From: Gaetbulibacter saemankumensis DSM 17032
Lineage (GTDB): Bacteria > Bacteroidota > Bacteroidia > Flavobacteriales > Flavobacteriaceae
Direction: 5' to 3'
Length of the DNA: 64,000 bases
Assembly (NCBI RefSeq): GCF_000425645.1
Contig: NZ_KE384430.1
Coordinates: forward strand, 1,351,492-1,415,491
Numbering within the stretch: position 1 is the first letter of the stretch; every line of letters starts with the position of its first letter. The notes beneath the pieces are model-generated. The model saw only the letters and a program-made list of their open reading frames with translations. It made no database searches and was not told the origin of the DNA. Shown here piece by piece: positions 10,355 through 35,376 of this stretch. A program made the position numbers and the translations under genes.

Positions 10355-11023
10355 ATGAGAGAAGACCTGTTACATGTTTACTTAATGCCTGGAATGGCAG
10401 CCAATCCTAAGATTTTTGAATATATAAAATTACCTGAGGATAAGTTTGAAATTCATTATTTATCATGGATCATTCCAAAAAATGAAGAATCGCTAGAAGC
10501 GTATGCCCATCGTATGTGTGAATTTATTATACACGATAATATTGTATTACTAGGCGTGTCATTTGGAGGTGTTCTGGTTCAGGAAATGGCAAAAATAGTG
10601 CAGGTTAAGAAGCTTATTATTGTTTCAAGTGTAAAATCGAAAGATGAATTGCCAACGAAAATGCGAATAGCAAAGGTAACCAGGGCATATAAGTTGGTGC
10701 CAACACAGTTAGTAAGCAAATTAGATGTTATCGCCGACTATGCCTTTGGAGCTAATGTTAGAAAGCGGCTTGAACTTTATAAAATGTACCTTTCTGTCAA
10801 TGATAGCAGGTATTTAAGTTGGGCCATAGAACAGATGGTTTGCTGGAATCAGGATGTTCCCGATTCTGGGTTAATTCATATTCATGGTGATAAAGATGAA
10901 GTCTTCCCGATAAAGCATATTAAAGATTGTATGGTGTTAAAAGGAGGTACCCATATCATGATAATAAATAAATATAAGTGGTTTAATGAAAATTTGCCTC
11001 GTATTATTTCAGAAACCTCTTGA
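10355..11023 (+). CDS. alpha/beta hydrolase
   Basis: A 222-residue cytoplasmic alpha/beta hydrolase. The nucleophile elbow is GVSFGG with Ser69 as the likely nucleophile. The acid is probably in GDKDEVFP (about residue 179) and the base His in GGTHIMI near residue 203. HVYLMPGMAANPKIF at the N-terminus fits the first strand and oxyanion region. The substrate is unknown. No signal peptide is present. It is followed after 33 bases by a lytic transglycosylase gene in the same direction, so an operon is likely, though a functional link is not evident. Confidence 0.85.
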   Translation: MREDLLHVYLMPGMAANPKIFEYIKLPEDKFEIHYLSWIIPKNEESLEAYAHRMCEFIIHDNIVLLGVSFGGVLVQEMAKIVQVKKLIIVSSVKSKDELPTKMRIAKVTRAYKLVPTQLVSKLDVIADYAFGANVRKRLELYKMYLSVNDSRYLSWAIEQMVCWNQDVPDSGLIHIHGDKDEVFPIKHIKDCMVLKGGTHIMIINKYKWFNENLPRIISETS

Positions 11024-11056
11024 AATTAAGTAATTTTATCCTAAAACTTATTAGCG

Positions 11057-11983
11057 ATGAAGATTATAGAAAAAGCCTTGGCGTTTGTAGGGTTATTAAG
11101 TTTATGTGCAATATTTATTTATGCCCTCCAAGATGCACCAACCGATGAGAATTTCGAGAAGAAACTTATAAACGATTATAACGTTTATGCGCTTCAAATA
11201 CCTGATAATTTAAATTTTTCAGGAGAACCATTACCTTTAAATAATCCTGATATTTTAGAGCGTATGGATAGGGAGTTGTTAGTAAATACTTATTGGCAAT
11301 CTAACGGACTACTTATGTTTAAACGAGCGAAAAAATATTTTCCAATCATTGAGCCTATTTTGGCAAAGTATGGCGTACCAGACGATTTTAAATATTTAGC
11401 TGTTATTGAGAGTGGATTAACGAATGCGGTTTCTCCTGCAGGAGCGCGTGGCGTGTGGCAAATTATGCCAGCGACGGCTAGAGAGAATGGCTTAGAAGTT
11501 AATGATAATGTTGATGAACGTTATAATTTAGAAATGGCTACCGAAGTAGCTTGTAAGTATTTATTAAAGTCTAAGGAAGAATTAGGTACTTGGACTTTGG
11601 CTGCAGCGGCATATAATGCCGGAGTTTCAGGAGTGTCAAGACGATTGGCGGAACAAAACGTCACCGATTATTATGATTTATTATTAGGTGAAGAAACTGG
11701 ACGTTATGTATTTCGGATAGTGGCTTTAAAAGAGATACTATCACATCCTAGTAAGTATGGGTTTAACTTCAGAGAAAAAGATTTATATAGTAATGTGCCT
11801 ACCTATAAGGTAAAAGTAGATACCGCAGTTACCGATTTTACTAAGTTTGCTGAGAACTTTGGAATTAATTATAAGATATTAAAACTGCACAACCCCTGGT
11901 TAAGAGAGCCAAAACTTAATAATAAGTCAAGAAAGCAATATGAGATTGAAATACCAAAGGATGGTTATTACAATATTAATTAA
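11057..11983 (+). CDS. lytic murein transglycosylase (MltD-like SLT domain)
   Basis: A 308-residue peptidoglycan-cleaving enzyme. An N-terminal hydrophobic segment (residues 8-24) acts as signal or anchor. The SLT domain covers about residues 95-240, with YLAVIESGLTNAVSPAGARG holding the catalytic Glu118, then GVWQIMPATARENGL and the AAAYNAGVSGVSRRL motif. The C-terminal 60 residues (YKVKVDTAVTDFTKFAENFG ... YEIEIPKDGYY) look like a degenerate LysM-like carbohydrate-binding segment. It should cut glycan strands in the periplasm during wall growth. It is downstream of the hydrolase gene. Confidence 0.92.
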   Translation: MKIIEKALAFVGLLSLCAIFIYALQDAPTDENFEKKLINDYNVYALQIPDNLNFSGEPLPLNNPDILERMDRELLVNTYWQSNGLLMFKRAKKYFPIIEPILAKYGVPDDFKYLAVIESGLTNAVSPAGARGVWQIMPATARENGLEVNDNVDERYNLEMATEVACKYLLKSKEELGTWTLAAAAYNAGVSGVSRRLAEQNVTDYYDLLLGEETGRYVFRIVALKEILSHPSKYGFNFREKDLYSNVPTYKVKVDTAVTDFTKFAENFGINYKILKLHNPWLREPKLNNKSRKQYEIEIPKDGYYNIN

Positions 11984-27128: not shown

Positions 27129-27181
27129 AATAATTCTGAAAGAGTTTAAAATAATGAATAACTTTTTCAGAATTATTTTTT
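27129..27181. terminator. bidirectional terminator
   Basis: The arm at 27129-27146 (AATAATTCTGAAAGAGTT) pairs over 18 bases, with one G-U, with 27160-27177. T's follow. The stem covers the stop codon of the convergent ABC ATPase gene. Confidence 0.88.
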
Positions 27182-27967
27182 TACTCTAAAACTACCAGTT
27201 TTTTCGTCGAAAGCAATTAAATCTTTAGGAAACAGATTTTCGAAATGCCCATTGGAAATTAAATTACAAGGCTCATCTGAAACGACCTGGCTCTCGGTCA
27301 TCACAATCATTTTATCACATAATTGAATTGCTAAGTCGATTTCATGTGAAGAGAACAGGATGGTTTTATTGGTTTCCTTAGCCAATTTTTGTAATAATTT
27401 TAAAATATAAGCTTTGTGATACATATCCAGATGTGTGGTAGGCTCATCCAGAATAATTAAGTCAGTATCTTGAGATAAGGCTCTTGCAATCATGACTTTT
27501 TGAAGTTGCCCATCGCTTAATTCAAAGCATTTTTTGTCTTTCAAAGATTCGATATTAATCAGTCGTATGGCCCTATAAACCATATCGATATCTGTTTTTG
27601 AAAAACTTCCTAGCCAATTGGTGTAGGGCTGTCTACCTAAAGCAATAAGCTCAAAAACCGTTAAATTTTTAGAGATAAGTTTTTCGGTTAACACCAAACT
27701 TAAAGTTTTTGCTAAATCGAGAGCATTCTGTTTTTCTAAAGGAATACTATTAATAAAAACTTGACCTTTTATAGGGTCTTGTACTTTGGTGAGAGTTCGA
27801 AGCAGTGTCGATTTACCTATACCATTAGCACCAACCAATCCTACTAATTCGCCTTGCCCTAGCTTAATATTAATATCAGAGGCAATAATAGTTTGTTCTT
27901 TTTTAGATGTATAACCAATACTTAAATTTTCGGTGTTTAAAACGATATGTTTGTTTGTAACTTCCAT
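27173..27967 (-). CDS. ABC transporter ATP-binding protein, FecE/BtuD family (corrinoid or siderophore uptake)
   Basis: A 264-residue ATPase with Walker A GANGIGKSTLLRTL, the signature LSDGQLQKVMIAR and Walker B LIILDEPTTHLD. It powers import by the permease encoded just upstream. The ATG at 27965-27967 overlaps the permease stop by one base (TAATG), so translation is coupled; a start 12 codons earlier inside the permease is less likely. Family membership is the siderophore/haem/B12 group. The B12 assignment rests on the adjacent cobalamin riboswitch-controlled receptor, not on the protein itself. It is the last gene of a three-gene operon. Confidence 0.93.
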   Translation of the reverse strand: MEVTNKHIVLNTENLSIGYTSKKEQTIIASDINIKLGQGELVGLVGANGIGKSTLLRTLTKVQDPIKGQVFINSIPLEKQNALDLAKTLSLVLTEKLISKNLTVFELIALGRQPYTNWLGSFSKTDIDMVYRAIRLINIESLKDKKCFELSDGQLQKVMIARALSQDTDLIILDEPTTHLDMYHKAYILKLLQKLAKETNKTILFSSHEIDLAIQLCDKMIVMTESQVVSDEPCNLISNGHFENLFPKDLIAFDEKTGSFRVKK

Positions 27968-28995
27968 TAGAACATCATTTTTCGTTTTCTTACTAATAAC
28001 CAAATAACAACAGGTGCGCCTATTAATGAGGTAATAGCATTTATAGGTAGGGTGTAATCACTAGATGGTAATTGGGCAATGCTATCACAAATGAGCATAA
28101 TTATAGCGCCAAGTAGAAATACAGCTGGTAATAAAATTTTGTGATTTGAAGTATGAAACAATTGTCTGGTAATATGTGGAATGGCTAATCCAATAAAAGC
28201 GATGGGGCCTACAAAGGCCGTAATTGTTCCAGCCAGTAAACTGGTAGATATTATAATAATTAAACGGCTTTTTTTAATGTTGAGACCTAAACTTTTAGCA
28301 TAGTTTTCACCAAGTAGCAAGGAATTTAGGCTCTTTATAGTGCCCAAACTTAGTATAATTCCGAAACTATATATTATAAATAAAATGAAGAGTTCCTGCC
28401 ATGATAAACTACCTAAACTTCCGAAGCCCCAAAACACAAATTGTTGTAATTCTTCGGCTGAACTAAAATAAGAAAGCACGCTAACTACGGCTGCAGAAAT
28501 GCTTCCAAACATAAGACCAATAATTAAGATAGCCATAGCATCTCGAACCTTTGTGGAAACAATAAGTACGGTTAGTAAAACTAAGAAACTACCCAAGGTA
28601 GCGGCGATAACCAAAGTCCATTTTGTCGTAAACATGACTAATAAAATACCACTAAAAAGTGAAGCGCCTAAGGTAACAATAGCCACACCTAAACTGGCTC
28701 CAGAAGTAATGCCTAGTACAAAGGGACCTGCCAATGGATTTCGAAATAAGGTTTGCATCATTAGTCCTGAAATGCCTAAACCTGAACCCACAATCATAGC
28801 AGTAAATGCTTTTGGTAAGCGATAATCTACGATAATATATTTCAAAGACGTGTTTTCCGTCGATCCAAACAAGGTGTTAAAAATATCACTTTTAGGAATA
28901 GAAACAGAGCCAAGGCTAATATTTACAAAAAAGCACAGGATAAGCAGGATGCCCAGAGCTATTAAAGTGACCGTATATTTATTTTGATATTGCAA
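27967..28995 (-). CDS. ABC transporter permease, FecCD/BtuC family
   Basis: A 342-residue permease with about ten membrane helices. DYRLPKAFTAMIVGSGLGIS, QTLFRNPLAGPFVLGITSGA and FVGPIAFIGLAIPHITRQLF are the family hallmarks, the last being near the ATPase-coupling loop. It forms the channel of a type II importer for corrinoids or siderophores. The start appears to be TTG at 28993-28995, placed directly after the stop codon of the binding protein; no ATG is available before the first helix. It overlaps the ATPase gene downstream. Confidence 0.93.
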   Translation of the reverse strand: MQYQNKYTVTLIALGILLILCFFVNISLGSVSIPKSDIFNTLFGSTENTSLKYIIVDYRLPKAFTAMIVGSGLGISGLMMQTLFRNPLAGPFVLGITSGASLGVAIVTLGASLFSGILLVMFTTKWTLVIAATLGSFLVLLTVLIVSTKVRDAMAILIIGLMFGSISAAVVSVLSYFSSAEELQQFVFWGFGSLGSLSWQELFILFIIYSFGIILSLGTIKSLNSLLLGENYAKSLGLNIKKSRLIIIISTSLLAGTITAFVGPIAFIGLAIPHITRQLFHTSNHKILLPAVFLLGAIIMLICDSIAQLPSSDYTLPINAITSLIGAPVVIWLLVRKRKMMF

Positions 28996-30135
28996 TTATT
29001 CTAATCGTTTAAAAAAGAAGTTCGTATAATTTGGTAATACTTCAGGGTGGGCAATGTTAATAATGTCTTTTAAAATGTAATCGGGTCTTAATGGACCTAA
29101 CTCATAAAAAAGCAATCCACCTTCAGATCCCATTTTATTCGTGTAAGTGTAAATGTTGTTGTTCTTGAAGGCAGTAAAATAACCATATCCTTTATGTTGA
29201 GAAAGCATGTGCCTTTTACTTTCGTAGGATCCGGCACCTATCCATAAATCTGCAGTTTGCCCTTTCTCTAACATATTTTCAAGATTTAATTGTAGACTTC
29301 CGGTCGAACTATCGTCTTTCCAAATATAATTGGTCCTGGCATCTTTAAAATATTGCGCTATAAAACTATTTCCTCCGGGTACATGCCAGACATCTTTAAA
29401 CATGGAACCCGATAATACCGTGGGGTGCTTTTTTGTTTTTAAAGCTAATTGTTTGGCGTTATTGTAGTTGGATTCTATCTCATTGAAAATGCTATCAGCT
29501 ATGTCATTTTTATCAAAAAAAGCGGCAATAAATTTAATCCATTCTGCACGACCAAGCGGATGCTGTTCTGTCCAGGAACCATCTAGTACAACCGGAATAT
29601 TGAATTTTTCAATTTGATTTAAAGACTTATTATTGCCATTAACTGTATAGCCAATAATTAGATCTGGTTTTAAATCAAGTAGAACTTCCATATTCATTTC
29701 CAGGTCGTTGTTTAAATCTCTGATGTCGCCTTGTTCAATTCTGGATCTTGTTTTTTCTGAAGAGATATATTTAGTACCAGGAAACCCTACCAGTTTGTTA
29801 TCCACACTAAGATATTCTAATGCAGGAATATTTGTGGTGGACATAACTACGAGGTTTTTTATAGGGTGCTTGATAATGACACTACCTTCTTGGTTTTCTT
29901 TGAAATATAGTTTGCTTGTAGGTTTAATATATCGAAATGTATCAGTGCTTTTCGGCCAGGGAGACGTGACAATGATTTCTTTATGATTCTCATAATAGTT
30001 AATAGAAAATCCAGTAGCATATTTAATGTTTTCCGACCTTAATATTTTCGATTCTAATGCACTATGTTCCTTTTTTGACTCTCTACAAGACATAAAAAAG
30101 AGTAGACTAATTGAAAATAAAACAATACGATGCAT
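28996..30135 (-). CDS. ABC transporter substrate-binding lipoprotein, BtuF/FecB-like
   Basis: A 379-residue lipoprotein (lipobox FFMSC, residue 17) with the class III solute-binding fold: VVMSTTNIPALEYL, then VDNKLVGFPGTKYIS, NMEVLLDLKPDLIIGYTVNG and GSWTEQHPLGRAEWIKF. It delivers a corrinoid or a siderophore to the permease. The first gene of the ABC operon; divergent from the Dph6-like gene at 30221 with an 85-base gap. No riboswitch is visible ahead of it, unlike the receptor gene at 31190. Vitamin B12 as cargo is inferred from this neighbourhood. Confidence 0.88.
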   Translation of the reverse strand: MHRIVLFSISLLFFMSCRESKKEHSALESKILRSENIKYATGFSINYYENHKEIIVTSPWPKSTDTFRYIKPTSKLYFKENQEGSVIIKHPIKNLVVMSTTNIPALEYLSVDNKLVGFPGTKYISSEKTRSRIEQGDIRDLNNDLEMNMEVLLDLKPDLIIGYTVNGNNKSLNQIEKFNIPVVLDGSWTEQHPLGRAEWIKFIAAFFDKNDIADSIFNEIESNYNNAKQLALKTKKHPTVLSGSMFKDVWHVPGGNSFIAQYFKDARTNYIWKDDSSTGSLQLNLENMLEKGQTADLWIGAGSYESKRHMLSQHKGYGYFTAFKNNNIYTYTNKMGSEGGLLFYELGPLRPDYILKDIINIAHPEVLPNYTNFFFKRLE

Positions 30136-30220: not shown

Positions 30221-30871
30221 ATGAAGTTTTTGTGTTCTTGGAGTGGCGGTAAAGACAGTTGCTATGCATTTTATAAGGCCATGAAATTGGGCTATCGACC
30301 AACGGTTTTATTAAATGTTATGAATGAGTTTGGCGATCGCTCTCGTTCACACGGCATAACAAAAGAAGTCCTTGAAGCACAAGCAAAGGCATTGAATTTA
30401 CCCATTCATTTTTTTAGTAGTACTTGGGCAGATTACGAAAGTAAATATATAAAGCAACTACAAACATTGGTAACAAAATACCCAATAAGTCATACGGTTT
30501 TTGGTGATATTGATATTGAATCGCATCGAGCTTGGGAAGAAAAAGTGTCACAGGCAGCTAATCTCGAAGCCGTTTTACCATTATGGCAAGGCGATCGAAA
30601 GGCTTTGGTTTTAGAAATAATTGATGCACGAATCGAAGCCATCATTGTTTCTTGTAATCAGGCTTTGGGACCTGATTTTTTAGGACGATCAATTACTCGT
30701 GAATTAGTGGATGAATTAGAACATATGGGCATCGATGCCTGTGGTGAAAATGGCGAGTTTCATACGCTCGTGGTTAATGCACCTTTTTTTAAGGCGAAGG
30801 TATCGGTTGAAATGCAAGGCGTGGCCGAAATGAGTAATTACAATTTTGCCAACGTCGTTTTAAAAGCTTAA
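30221..30871 (+). CDS. Dph6-like ATP pyrophosphatase (ATP_bind_4), copy 1
   Basis: A 216-residue enzyme of the PP-loop family. SWSGGKDSCYAFYKAM at the N-terminus is the ATP-pyrophosphate motif and CGENGEFHTLVVNAPFF the family's second hallmark. The eukaryotic and archaeal relative Dph6 joins ammonia to diphthine. Bacteria lack diphthamide, so the substrate must be another carboxylate. It lies between the BtuF-like gene and the cobalamin riboswitch-BtuB unit, and a second copy follows the receptor at 33093. A role in amidation of corrinoid side chains is an inference from location. The start ATG follows a good promoter. Confidence 0.88.
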   Translation: MKFLCSWSGGKDSCYAFYKAMKLGYRPTVLLNVMNEFGDRSRSHGITKEVLEAQAKALNLPIHFFSSTWADYESKYIKQLQTLVTKYPISHTVFGDIDIESHRAWEEKVSQAANLEAVLPLWQGDRKALVLEIIDARIEAIIVSCNQALGPDFLGRSITRELVDELEHMGIDACGENGEFHTLVVNAPFFKAKVSVEMQGVAEMSNYNFANVVLKA

Positions 30872-30925
30872 TTCTTTTTTAAATAAATAACTTCTAAAAA
30901 ATGTTTTTAGAATAAAAATAGGTAG

Positions 30926-30933
30926 TACATTTG
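30926..30933 (+). promoter_or_regulatory. candidate -7 box of the riboswitch-BtuB transcript
   Basis: TACATTTG followed by C matches TAnnTTTGc, and the riboswitch begins about 10 bases later, where transcription would start. A -33 TTTG is not clear. Confidence 0.6.
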
Positions 30934-30942
30934 CAGCGAATT

Positions 30943-31108
30943 TAGGTTCTAATCGGTTTTAAATCGAAAGGATTAAAAGGGAATCTGGTGGAAATCCAGA
31001 GCTGTTCCCGCAACTGTAAGCTATAAAGCTTCATGTAACACTTCTAGTCACTGAAGAATATTCTTTGGGAAGACCAACATGAAGACGCAAGTCAGGAGAC
31101 CTGCCAAA
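30943..31108 (+). promoter_or_regulatory. cobalamin riboswitch
   Basis: The conserved core GCTGTTCCCGCAACTGTAA lies at 31001-31019, preceded by GGAATCTGGTG and AAATCCAG that form the P3-P4 arm, and followed by the B12 box GCAAGTCAGGAGACCTGCC at 31087-31105. This is a complete adenosylcobalamin-type aptamer by pattern. It should repress the TonB receptor gene when B12 is plentiful, most likely by hiding the ribosome binding region, since no T-run terminator is seen between 31108 and 31190. Ends are approximate. Confidence 0.95.
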
Positions 31109-31189
31109 TTCAAACAAATTAAGTTAAACTTTCGGGATAAAAGTTTGCGTATGATAAACCATACGATTCCGATTTATTATTCATTAGAA

Positions 31190-33037
31190 ATGAAAAAAAG
31201 AACAAGAGTATTAGGTATTCTATGCTTAGGAGTATCATTATTTGGATTTTCTCAAGAGAAAAGCGAAGTAAAACTGGAAGAGTTAGATGAAGTTGTAATA
31301 ACGGATTCCAGATTTGAATTAAAACGTGAAAATTCAGGGAAAACTGTTATTAACATCTCTCGCGAAGAGATAGAAAAAAACCAAGGACGAACGGTTGCCG
31401 ATTTAATTAATACAAAATCAGGTATTGAAATCAATGGTAGTAGAAGTAATGCCGGACAAAATCTGGGTACTTATGTTCGTGGAGGTAACAATCGTCAAGT
31501 ATTAGTTATTATTGATGGAGTACAGATGGCTGATCCGTCATTTATAAGTGGTGATTACGATTTACGATTATTAAATTTAAGTCAAATTGAATCTATCGAA
31601 ATTATAAAAGGTGCTTCAAGTACACTTTATGGAAGTGGTGCGGCAACGGCAGTTATCAGTATCAGAACAAAAAAGGCAAGTTCCGAAAAAATCAGTGGAA
31701 CCTTTGCTTCAAGTCTAGGAACAAATCAAACACAGGACGATCAAAAATATAATATTTCCGATTTTCATAATAATGTTGCTTTTGGTGGAACATTAGAAAA
31801 GTTTACTTACAGAGCCGGGTTTAGTCAACAGTTTACTAATGGGATGTCTGCGCTGGTTGGTACAGACGAAAAAGATCCGTTTTCAAAATACGGTTTAGAT
31901 GTTAATTTAGGGTATGCTTTTTCAAAGACGTTTACTTTAAATGTATTTGCTAATTCCATTAATATCGAATCTGGTTATGATGATAGTTTTGGGATGATCG
32001 ATACAGATGACGAATTTATTTCAAAACAAGATCGTATAGGGTTGTCATCAAAATTTAACTATAATCAAGGAAGCATTAATTTAAATGCGGCTTATACAGA
32101 ATTTGATAGGGAGTATATATCAAGTTTTCCTTCAGAATCAAAATCTAAAAGTTTAGTATTCGATATATATAATAAGTATGTTTTTAATGAAACATTTTAT
32201 ACGATTATAGGGGTGAATGCTATTGAAAATAGAGTTGATTTTGATGAGGTAGAGAGTTATACCAATATTGACCCATACATCAATGCGGTATATGTGTCGG
32301 ATTTCGGATTAAATATAAATGCCGGAGCTAGGTTAAACAATCATAGTGAATATGGTAACCATGTAATTTATAACGTAAACCCTTCGTATGTTATGAAATA
32401 CGATAATGGTTCATACAGTAAAATATTTGGTTCTTATGCAACATCTTTTATTACACCTTCGTTAACTCAGTTATTCGGGCGATGGGGACCAAATCCAGAT
32501 TTAAAACCTGAAGATGACCGAACCATAGAGGGTGGTATTGAGTTTAAAGCTTCAAAACAATTAAGAGTTTCAGGACTTTATTTTAATAGAGAAGAAGAGA
32601 ATTATATTGCATATAGCTGGCAATCTGGTTATTATAATGCTGAGGATGTCGTAAAAACGCATGGGGTAGAAGTAGAGTTGACGTCTAGACCTATTGAAGC
32701 TTTGAGTTTAACAGCGAATTATACGTTTACTGAAAATAAAAATGCCCCGGCGCTTAGAATACCTAAGCATAAGGCCAATGCTGTAATTGGTTATGATTTT
32801 TCAGATAAAATGTATGCATCCATTGCTTATCAATATACCGATAAAAGATTGGATACGGGCGAAGTGACTTTAGATGCTTTTAATGTATTTAATTTTTATT
32901 GGAGCCATACAGCCATAAAAAACAAGATGAAATTCTTCGTAGGTTTAGATAATATTTTAAATGAAGATTATCTGGAGTTAAACGGATTTAATACTAGAGG
33001 TAGAAACGCTAAATTAGGTTTTCAATTAACCTTATAG
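31190..33037 (+). CDS. btuB: TonB-dependent receptor, BtuB-like (cobalamin uptake)
   Basis: A 615-residue outer-membrane receptor. A signal peptide ends at FGFSQ (residue about 22), then a TonB box-like LDEVVITDSRFE, and the plug domain (GRTVADLINTKSGIEINGSR, LLNLSQIESIEIIKGASSTL YGSGAATAVI across residues 90-160). The barrel ends at NAKLGFQLTL. Cobalamin as cargo is supported by the riboswitch directly upstream. The start is the ATG at 31190; longer starts begin inside the riboswitch itself. Flanked by two Dph6-like genes and near the BtuFCD-like operon. Confidence 0.93.
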   Translation: MKKRTRVLGILCLGVSLFGFSQEKSEVKLEELDEVVITDSRFELKRENSGKTVINISREEIEKNQGRTVADLINTKSGIEINGSRSNAGQNLGTYVRGGNNRQVLVIIDGVQMADPSFISGDYDLRLLNLSQIESIEIIKGASSTLYGSGAATAVISIRTKKASSEKISGTFASSLGTNQTQDDQKYNISDFHNNVAFGGTLEKFTYRAGFSQQFTNGMSALVGTDEKDPFSKYGLDVNLGYAFSKTFTLNVFANSINIESGYDDSFGMIDTDDEFISKQDRIGLSSKFNYNQGSINLNAAYTEFDREYISSFPSESKSKSLVFDIYNKYVFNETFYTIIGVNAIENRVDFDEVESYTNIDPYINAVYVSDFGLNINAGARLNNHSEYGNHVIYNVNPSYVMKYDNGSYSKIFGSYATSFITPSLTQLFGRWGPNPDLKPEDDRTIEGGIEFKASKQLRVSGLYFNREEENYIAYSWQSGYYNAEDVVKTHGVEVELTSRPIEALSLTANYTFTENKNAPALRIPKHKANAVIGYDFSDKMYASIAYQYTDKRLDTGEVTLDAFNVFNFYWSHTAIKNKMKFFVGLDNILNEDYLELNGFNTRGRNAKLGFQLTL

Positions 33038-33062
33038 AAGAAGTCATTGTTAGATATTATAC

Positions 33063-33087
33063 AGCCACCTTAATTAGGTGGCTTTTA
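33063..33087. terminator. terminator after btuB
   Basis: AGCCACCT at 33063-33070 pairs with AGGTGGCT at 33076-33083, with T's after it. It separates btuB from the convergent Dph6-like gene. Confidence 0.8.
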
Positions 33088-33092
33088 TAATT

Positions 33093-33806
33093 TTAAGGAA
33101 TTAAATCGCAGTACCAGATACCATACTTTTCAGATTTACAAACTGAGTTATCTGTGTTTGGGTTGTCATATTCACGATATACTTTTTCACCAATGGTGTA
33201 AGGTATGGGATTTTTGAAAATTGGTCCGTCGAAACAGAAGGTATGGAATTCACCATTTTCACCACAAGGGTCGACACCTTTCGGTAGGTTGTCTATAAAA
33301 TGTTCATCGATTACAGTACCCACGAAATTTTCATCAAAATATTTTGAATTCGCGCATACCACTACCGTCTTAAATCCTAATTCCAGAAATTCAGAGATCA
33401 GTGCTTTTGTATCTTTTTTCCAAATAGGGAAAACAGCCTCTAAATTTTGTTTGGCAAGTTGTTTTACCCGGTAATCCTTTAAATCTTCTAAAAAGATGTC
33501 GCCAAAGGCACTGTGGGTAAATCCGTCATCTTTTAATCGGTTAACCGCTTCAAGCATTTTTTGTTCATAAATTTCCATGCTAGGCATTTCAGGTAATTCA
33601 ATTAAACTAGCTGGAATATCAATGGCATTAGTTTGGGCCAACAATAATTCTTTTCTAAGCCCATGCATAGAAACACGGTTGTAATGACTGTTTACGGTTG
33701 TGATTAATTCATCGACCGAATAATTTTCATCTTGTAATAAATGATAGAGTGCCAAGGCAGAATCTTTGCCTGTACTCCAGTTAAAGTAGGTTTTATTTTT
33801 CTTCAA
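33093..33806 (-). CDS. Dph6-like ATP pyrophosphatase (ATP_bind_4), copy 2
   Basis: A 237-residue PP-loop enzyme, a paralogue of the gene at 30221. NWSTGKDSALALYHLL carries the ATP motif, and PCGENGEFHTFCFDGPIFK the second family motif; the C-terminus is about 20 residues longer with two extra cysteines. The start appears to be TTG at 33804-33806, overlapping the end of the S41 peptidase gene by 14 bases, so the two genes may be translationally coupled. It converges with btuB. The substrate is unknown. The two copies resemble each other clearly but are far from identical. Confidence 0.87.
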   Translation of the reverse strand: MKKNKTYFNWSTGKDSALALYHLLQDENYSVDELITTVNSHYNRVSMHGLRKELLLAQTNAIDIPASLIELPEMPSMEIYEQKMLEAVNRLKDDGFTHSAFGDIFLEDLKDYRVKQLAKQNLEAVFPIWKKDTKALISEFLELGFKTVVVCANSKYFDENFVGTVIDEHFIDNLPKGVDPCGENGEFHTFCFDGPIFKNPIPYTIGEKVYREYDNPNTDNSVCKSEKYGIWYCDLIP

Positions 33807-35280
33807 AAAGATAAGTGTTTAAGAGATGTTTTGGAATTTTTTTATCTGAATACATGGTGTTTGGAAATAATTCAAAACTATTACTGTCTTTGAAACTATT
33901 TAATTGTGTTTTGGGTTTTGAACTTATAGCCTTTGCCGAAATTCCTTCAATATCAGCTAAAGCCGCAGCTAATAGTTTTTCATTTTTATCACCTATCACC
34001 CCAAGATTTAAATCGCTTTCAGATAATGCTATATCTGGTGTTAAACCATTAAAATAATCTGTGTTCCCAATCTTATTAGCTGATTTATATACTAATGGTT
34101 GCATGGCGTAAGCGTGGGTTGGATTTGCGCTTTGACGACCAAAATCTTCAGAATCATAAAGCGTTATGGATGCCTGATATTTACCAGCAGTATTTTCTCC
34201 TATATGTATAACTTCAATGTACGGGTCTAAACTGTTTATAACTAACTCACTGGCAGAGGCAGATGATTCTAAAGCAAGAATATATACTTTTTGAAGGTTC
34301 AGACTGTTTATTGGATTACCATCAATATTGTTTGTAAACCTAAGGTTCAGTGATTCTGGATCGTTCTCTTCAAAAGCTGCTTGAAACTCAGAATTCCACT
34401 GCTCCGTGCTAAAAATATCACCATTAAATTGCCCCGTTATCATACTGGAAAGCAATACTGCAGAGCTGACAAATCCGCCTGGGTTATAACGTAAATCAAG
34501 AACTAAATGCTGTACATTATTAGCTTTGAATGCGCCAAAAGCAGCATTTAACTCAGCATCGTAAACACTTGTGAAGCGATTATACATGAGATACCCCACA
34601 TTTCCTGCTGTTGTGGATATGATTTCCGTCTTATATACAGGGTTTTCACTATATTCTACTTTGTTTAAAGCAATAGTCTCATTGGTTGATTCAATGGTGT
34701 CGTCGGTGGTATCACCTGTTCCGTTGGTATTATAGTTGGCTAGGTGAATGGTGTAAGTATTTGTGCTTAATAAATTTAGATAATTATCGATGGTTAGTTC
34801 AGTGTCATCAATAGCGTAGAAAATATCACCACGTTTCACTCCTTTTGTTTCAGCATCGCTATTGTTTAATACCAATCGAACAATTCCTATAAGTTTGGTA
34901 TTGCTGTTTGGTTGACGAAACAGTCTGAATTCCATACCGTTGCTTAGCGATATGCCATTAAAAGATTGTTCTAAAGCAATATAGTCGTCAACAATCCAAC
35001 TAAATCTATCGACAGTTTGTCTTTCATAAATTAAACTTTCAAATAATTCTTCTGGAGCAGAAAAGCTGTTTAAATAGCTAGCATATTCATTGTTTGAAGA
35101 AAATCGGTCGTTTGCCAAATCAGGAACATCATCTTTGTATAGGTAGAAAATATTCATGCCTCGCCATACGAAATCGTTTATTTGACTTGCAGTAACTTCA
35201 TTATCATCATTATCTTCAAAGCAACTGGTAGTTAAAAAGGAAACTACGGTAAGAATCATTAGGGCTTTAATAAATCGCAT
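33793..35280 (-). CDS. S41 family peptidase, PDZ-containing lipoprotein (CtpA-like)
   Basis: A 495-residue exported protease. Lipobox LTTSC at residue 20 follows the MRFIKALMILTVV signal. A PDZ-like region with GDIFYAIDDTELTIDNYL follows, then the S41 core: LDLRYNPGGFV, ESSASASELVINSLD (catalytic Ser) and GENTAGKYQASI (catalytic Lys). It should cleave proteins in the envelope. The ATG at 35278-35280 gives a good lipoprotein signal; a longer reading adds 26 unlikely residues. It is followed by the second Dph6-like gene with 14 bases of overlap. Confidence 0.92.
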   Translation of the reverse strand: MRFIKALMILTVVSFLTTSCFEDNDDNEVTASQINDFVWRGMNIFYLYKDDVPDLANDRFSSNNEYASYLNSFSAPEELFESLIYERQTVDRFSWIVDDYIALEQSFNGISLSNGMEFRLFRQPNSNTKLIGIVRLVLNNSDAETKGVKRGDIFYAIDDTELTIDNYLNLLSTNTYTIHLANYNTNGTGDTTDDTIESTNETIALNKVEYSENPVYKTEIISTTAGNVGYLMYNRFTSVYDAELNAAFGAFKANNVQHLVLDLRYNPGGFVSSAVLLSSMITGQFNGDIFSTEQWNSEFQAAFEENDPESLNLRFTNNIDGNPINSLNLQKVYILALESSASASELVINSLDPYIEVIHIGENTAGKYQASITLYDSEDFGRQSANPTHAYAMQPLVYKSANKIGNTDYFNGLTPDIALSESDLNLGVIGDKNEKLLAAALADIEGISAKAISSKPKTQLNSFKDSNSFELFPNTMYSDKKIPKHLLNTYLFEEK

Positions 35281-35351
35281 AGCAAGTTTTGTGTCTGTTA
35301 GTGTTAAAACTTTAAATTTACTTACATTATTATGCAAATAAAAAATAATTT

Positions 35352-35376
35352 GTAACAATTTAGGCTATATGTCGTC
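35352..35376 (+). promoter_or_regulatory. candidate ECF-type promoter ahead of the sigma factor gene
   Basis: GTAAC at 35352-35356 and CGTC at 35373-35376 are 16 bases apart, which resembles the -35/-10 pair used by several ECF sigma factors (AAC and CGTC). The sigma gene starts at 35423. Autoregulation would fit this, but the consensus of this sigma is unknown. Confidence 0.35.

Follow-up and report, generated by a model that had tools for sequence, protein, structure and literature searches.

Here, we explored a locus of Gaetbulibacter saemankumensis DSM 17032 (family Flavobacteriaceae) at which the genes of two ATP pyrophosphatases of the DUF71 family, denoted P1 and P2, flank a gene for a BtuB-like vitamin B12 receptor, with btuFCD-like genes on the far side of P1 (Table 1). 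The locus is part of a window of 64,000 nucleotides, i.e., the whole stretch of DNA that was analysed (assembly GCF_000425645.1, contig NZ_KE384430.1, forward-strand positions 1,351,492 to 1,415,491), and positions are counted from its first letter. A first-pass annotation, made from the letters of the window, had described paralogues with PP-loop and CGENGEFHT motifs at 30221 and 33093, set around a riboswitch-controlled btuB and next to BtuFCD-type genes, and both open reading frames, their motifs and the neighbours are confirmed. Against PF01902 (also known as DUF71, ATP_bind_4 or Diphthami_syn_2; gathering score 23.2), P1 scores 149.5 bits (E 1.3e-43) and P2 110.5 bits (E 1.1e-31); this is the sole family that either protein matches in a Pfam search, and P1 and P2 are the only PF01902 genes in the genome (3.09 Mb, 99.95% complete). 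The PP-loop, S-x-G-K-D-S, is present in both, and its S, G, K and D are each conserved in at least 90% of the P1 group and of the P2 group. The open reading frame at 31145-33037 matches TonB-B12/BtuB models with E 9e-57, under the model cut-off, and btuB probably starts at the ATG at 31190 because the listed start, 31079, falls inside the riboswitch.

Table 1. Features of the P1-btuB-P2 locus, in window positions.
Feature	Position	Strand	Remarks
BtuD-like ATP-binding cassette (ABC) ATPase	27173..28003	-	profile matches
BtuC-like permease	27967..28995	-	FecCD family; top NCBIfam match BtuC
BtuF-like periplasmic binding lipoprotein	28996..30135	-	PF01497; divergent from P1
Promoter-like element TTG-N20-TACTTTTG upstream of P1	30171..30201	+	position read in the sequence
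P1, DUF71/PF01902 ATP pyrophosphatase, 216 residues	30221..30871	+	SGGKDS, CGENGEFHT; subfamily elsewhere with cobU-cobT-cobS-cobC
Cobalamin riboswitch RF00174, leader of btuB only	30937..31122	+	110.7 bits, gathering score 31.5
BtuB-like TonB-dependent B12 receptor	31190..33037	+	start placed after riboswitch
P2, DUF71/PF01902 ATP pyrophosphatase, 237 residues	33093..33806	-	STGKDS, CGENGEFHT
S41 peptidase	33793..35358	-	NF058627; on P2's strand; conserved neighbour across the family whether or not DUF71 is present

The riboswitch is the only Rfam match in the window. It begins 66 base pairs (bp) beyond the end of P1, and P2 is encoded on the opposite strand, so that positions and strands reject riboswitch control of either DUF71 gene here. 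The putative promoter element upstream of P1 resembles the Bacteroidota-type consensus. The S41 peptidase gene lies upstream of P2 and overlaps it by 14 bp; across about 35 loci of the host's family, with a single exception, the distance between the two ranges from -26 to +48 bp, and this overlap or near-contact, seen in nearly all family genomes with P2 in the block, suggests joint translation.

PP-loop ATP pyrophosphatases activate their substrates with ATP and release pyrophosphate. To our knowledge, bacteria have no diphthamide, and the proposal of the first-pass annotation that the pair acts on a corrinoid, rather than on the diphthamide of elongation factor 2, is well supported. This link had already been published in 2012, when de Crecy-Lagard et al. 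separated, within the DUF71 family, a DUF71-B12 subgroup (PF0295-type proteins) from Dph6. In this subgroup, the Dph6 motif EGGE-x-E188 is replaced by ENGEF/YH; of its 102 genes, 75 are next to genes of B12 transporters and 18 next to cbiB, the bacterial members are anticorrelated with CbiZ, and the proposed role was either CbiZ-like cleavage of adenosylpseudocobalamin or another salvage route for it (PMC3541065). The CGENGEFHT of P1 and P2 is the ENGEF/YH motif of this subgroup, and their link to B12 is a rediscovery of the one reported in 2012, combined with another conjecture about the chemistry. A 2016 review entered the subgroup as "function unknown, B12 salvage" (PMC5041015), and no later experimental assignment of its reaction was found in the open-access papers searched for the time after 2012.

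Genome-wide profile searches found BtuC, a PduO-type adenosyltransferase and three proteins with B12-binding domains, and none of CobS, CbiB and CbiZ. Judging from this gene complement, G. saemankumensis is able to import a complete cobamide and to adenosylate it, but not to attach the nucleotide loop. In a sample of 149 genomes of the family, mostly 99% complete and with counts uncorrected for phylogeny, CobS is found in 17, CbiB in 7, BtuC in 131, the PduO-type adenosyltransferase (PF01923) in 143 and DUF71 in 65; CbiZ (PF01955) is found in none of the 149, this genome included. P2 occupies a B12 locus, or the syntenic slot, in 28 genomes of the sample, a set compiled by hand that includes one genome (G051) with the slot kept and btuB relocated; CbiB is missing from 26 of the 28, and in 21 CobS is missing as well. 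In the eight P1 genomes of the sample, CobS is present in seven, vs 10 of 141 others (Fisher p 5e-7, not corrected for kinship), and CbiB is missing from six of the eight and from five of the seven with CobS. BtuC occurs in 63 of 65 genomes with DUF71, vs 68 of 84 others (p 0.004). A role of DUF71 as a substitute adenosyltransferase is rejected by the presence of PF01923 in nearly every genome, this one among them, and a role as a general substitute for CbiB is unlikely, given the many P2-type genes in genomes that lack CobS too.

P1 and P2 belong to two separate subfamilies. Only 72 of 214 aligned residues (34%) are identical, and in a tree of 76 DUF71 sequences, all from Bacteroidota and aligned independently of the published 2012 alignment, the eight P1 proteins group together (support 100/99), with every P2-like protein outside their clade. 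A recent tandem duplication is rejected by this identity and these separate clades; by their sequences, P1 and P2 are anciently separated members of the DUF71-B12 subgroup. At 16 aligned positions the two groups hold different residues, conserved in at least 90% of P1 and at least 85% of B12-linked P2 proteins. Some of these lie near H44/H48, where the stretch before the conserved His reads SRSH in P1 (differences at 41-43) and VSMH in P2 (at 45-47), and others fall at 98-106 of P1 and 105-113 of P2; both stretches align near residues that have been placed at the substrate interface of Dph6 (PMC3541065). P2-like proteins outside B12 loci retain 52 of 65 conserved P2 positions and may share the activity of P2. 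A further divergent type of short DUF71 protein (about 190-280 residues, 26-30% identical to P1 and P2) was seen in loci L171-L175, with no B12 gene recognised in its neighbourhood.

The association with B12 genes on which the proposal of the first-pass annotation depends proved strong in other Bacteroidota. Our survey covered about 140 neighbourhoods of 9-19 kb each from sampled genomes of this phylum; genes were labelled with profiles that we derived from clusters within the family, Pfam searches in Roseivirga bore out the labels of cobU, cobT, cobS, cobC and P2, and a gene was counted as beside B12 genes when within 7.5 kb of them, a threshold of our own. Of 30 distinct loci with a P1-type gene, 29 place it near B12 genes, and 26 have three or all four of cobU, cobT, cobS and cobC close to it; the P1 loci without cobUTSC are the one in this window, L119 (Chitinophaga skermanii), L153, and L152, which has cobU only and transposase-like genes downstream. 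For P2-type genes, 55 of 111 loci are near B12 genes. Gene order varies widely: Tamlana-like genomes have btuDCF, P1, cobC-S-T-U and btuB in that order, P1 being convergent with cobC-S-T-U; L154-L156 have cobU-P1-cobT-S-C; Roseivirga pacifica (L117) carries both types on a single strand, in the order btuF-C-D-B-P1-cobU-P2-cobT-S-C; and a Kordia metagenome-assembled genome (L118) has P2-btuF-cobU-P1-cobT-S-C-btuC-D. Given that the association persists through many rearrangements, mere hitchhiking of DUF71-B12 genes is unlikely. In C. skermanii, the P1 orthologue lies directly behind lepA (L119, 7052-9651), off the B12 genes, and CobS is encoded elsewhere in the genome. At another P1 locus (L030, genome G072, 10852-11442), cobS is truncated by a frame disruption, and an intact second CobS and CbiB are found elsewhere.

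At 14 loci elsewhere in Bacteroidota, a cobalamin riboswitch precedes a DUF71 gene in the same orientation, uninterrupted by any gene of the other strand (L033, L117, L153, L158, L161, L163, L164, L166, L184, L185, L186, L189, L190 and L191), a count and not a rate, most of these loci having been drawn from a sample of DUF71 carriers. The B12-box pattern used for finding riboswitches recovered 16 of 17 known ones, and every riboswitch cited here is an Rfam match. The riboswitch-led btuB runs of L184, L185, L189 and L190 also include a DUF6580 membrane protein and a SIR2-type sirtuin before or near the DUF71 gene, and L184 and L189 encode a BtuF-like protein apparently devoid of a signal peptide. 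Within the family, P2 sits directly behind the S41 peptidase gene in a conserved S41-sigma-DUF4252-purB block, which carries btuB or btuFCD also where there is no DUF71 gene at all (L095-L100), and the independent support for a link of P2 to B12 is the differing gene orders outside this block. Remnants of P2 persist beside S41 at G014:C1:3594074-3594235 (L091) and G124:C31:21175-21351 (L089), in genomes whose B12 genes are no longer in the block.

Beyond the neighbourhood and gene-content data, everything that follows is what we infer. With a probability of roughly 0.4, we propose that P1 and P2 act in the cytosol, in an ATP-dependent and amide-forming manner, on an intact imported cobamide. 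BtuB and BtuFCD would import the corrinoid, on which P1 and P2 would then most likely act, and the substrate would be a complete cobamide, or a group on one, rather than a precursor for rebuilding, because the nucleotide loop cannot be attached by the majority of the genomes that carry P2 in a B12 locus or in its syntenic slot, or by two of those with P1. A pure cut-and-rebuild role would be useless here and in most carriers of P2, so that action on a complete cobamide is the simpler assumption. Acyl activation followed by amide formation would be the most natural chemistry because of the membership of both proteins in the PP-loop superfamily: a carboxylate of the substrate would be activated with ATP, in an AMP-forming step, and joined to ammonia or an amine, with P1 and P2 working on different groups or on different corrinoids. 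The simplest such reaction would be the repair of de-amidated side chains, for which no further genes would be needed. The ATP-dependent corrinoid amidation suggested by the first-pass annotation would thus be one option compatible with the absence of CobS, CbiB and CbiZ, since mending a side chain of an intact cobamide would keep its value here and cleavage followed by rebuilding would not; the same annotation's idea that incomplete corrinoids, such as cobyric acid, are completed is unlikely for this genome, in which the molecule cannot be finished without CobS. In its most specific form, a two-enzyme repair in which P1 and P2 each use ATP to re-amidate a different carboxylate of a partly de-amidated import, the proposal has a slim chance of being correct; if it is, B12 damaged by hydrolysis in the environment would be usable without rebuilding of the nucleotide loop, a step previously undescribed.

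Several observations weigh against the proposed amide-forming action on intact cobamides. No DUF71-B12 enzyme has a known reaction, and the Glu at the reaction site of Dph6 (PMC3541065) is a His in both P1 and P2, a replacement that may have changed the ligase chemistry and that argues against simple Dph6 chemistry. DUF71 appears dispensable for B12 uptake, given that 68 of the 131 family genomes with BtuC lack any DUF71. About half of the P2-like genes are away from B12 genes, e.g., beside aroQ/lpd/xerD, and the slot of P2 beside S41 in the family is a single inherited arrangement, so that the B12 adjacencies there are not independent. As for P1, its usual setting is nucleotide-loop assembly, with CobS present in 28 of 30 P1 genomes across the survey, and the copy in this window could be a leftover of a recent loss of cobUTSC.

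The alternatives differ in which part of this picture they accommodate. According to the published proposal, DUF71-B12 replaces CbiZ in bacteria: pseudo-B12, or some other cobamide that the cell cannot use, would be cleaved and then reassembled with a preferable lower ligand. The anticorrelation with CbiZ and the clustering with cbiB (PMC3541065) speak for this, as do the absence of CbiZ throughout the family sample and the tie of P1 to cobU-cobT-cobS-cobC, inside which P1 is embedded in L117, L118 and L154-L156. However, rebuilding from the cobyric acid so produced requires CbiB and CobS, both missing from those 21 of 28 P2 genomes; in G. saemankumensis the cleavage product could not be reused; and a hydrolase has no obvious gain from ATP. 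We regard this explanation as unlikely. If unusable corrinoids were instead modified or discarded without rebuilding, e.g., by tagging or opening wrong cobamides, such quality control would stop them from blocking B12 enzymes and would suit both the carrier genomes that lack CobS and the location next to uptake genes; yet the tie between P1 and cobUTSC speaks for a constructive pathway, and we consider this reading improbable.

The same tie, which suggests an additional, or even the main, role of P1 in genomes capable of nucleotide-loop assembly, is the core of another explanation, under which P1 belongs to this assembly, for instance as an alternative to CbiB that joins cobyric acid to the aminopropanol unit or in a lower-ligand step before CobT, and persists in this window as a relic of cobUTSC loss. 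The prevalence of CobS in P1 genomes and the lack of CbiB in most CobS-bearing P1 genomes of the family sample agree with it. Nevertheless, P1 here is intact, with a ratio of nonsynonymous divergence (dN) to that of BtuF of 0.69, vs 0.67 +/- 0.15, i.e., no relaxed constraint; thus, the dN comparison, although weak due to saturated synonymous sites, does not support a decaying relic. Furthermore, in another genome (G303), P1 stands in a riboswitch-btuB-P1 run although CobS is missing, and five genomes of the family sample with CobS and without CbiB lack P1. We consider this account unlikely. Finally, P2 might have nothing to do with B12, its adjacency to btuB being inherited with the S41-sigma-DUF4252-purB block. 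This would explain why P2 overlaps or closely follows S41 in the family loci while the block also exists without P2, and why P2-like proteins beside aroQ/lpd/xerD and elsewhere off B12 loci keep most conserved positions. Against it stand the P2-type genes in riboswitch-led B12 runs of other families, in several orders, the joint occurrence of P2 and P1 in L117 and L118, and the near-constant presence of BtuC in DUF71 genomes, so that we hold it to be very unlikely.

The survey sharpens the question to be asked of DUF71-B12 proteins: as many carriers cannot rebuild a cobamide, a reaction on complete cobamides is to be sought, and P1 and P2 are to be regarded as two different activities. The answer would correct the homology-based label "diphthine--ammonia ligase" on such proteins and could reveal a new step in the use of scavenged B12 by marine and host-associated Bacteroidota.

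Compared with the Dph6 references, namely, archaeal PF0828 (PDB 3RJZ/3RK0/3RK1), PH1257 (PDB 2D13) and yeast YLR143W, P1 and P2 are placed by sequence in the same fold family (E 9e-22 to 2e-14) and share the PP-loop, the conserved His and the GE-G-EF core. In the alignment, their CGENGEFHT matches the GEGGEFET of PF0828, but the catalytic-site Glu188 of EGGE-x-E is His, and the scores of P1 and P2 (99.5 and 87 bits) fall far short of the equivalog cut-off of 197.3 for TIGR03679 (NCBIfam). With the cobamide-remodelling enzymes CbiZ and CbiR, the pair has in common a location beside corrinoid uptake and nucleotide-loop genes (PMC7733943); unlike these enzymes, of which CbiR is of the apurinic/apyrimidinic (AP) endonuclease 2 type, P1 and P2 come from an unrelated family and occur in a genome in which remodelling cannot be finished without CobS. 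From the DUF71-B12 subgroup as described in 2012, the locus differs in that two subtypes flank one btuB and in that the remodelling role proposed at the time cannot be completed here because CbiB, CobS and CbiZ are absent. Like the members of that subgroup, P1 and P2 are bacterial PF01902 proteins with the ENGEF/YH motif that are encoded beside BtuFCD and other B12 salvage genes.

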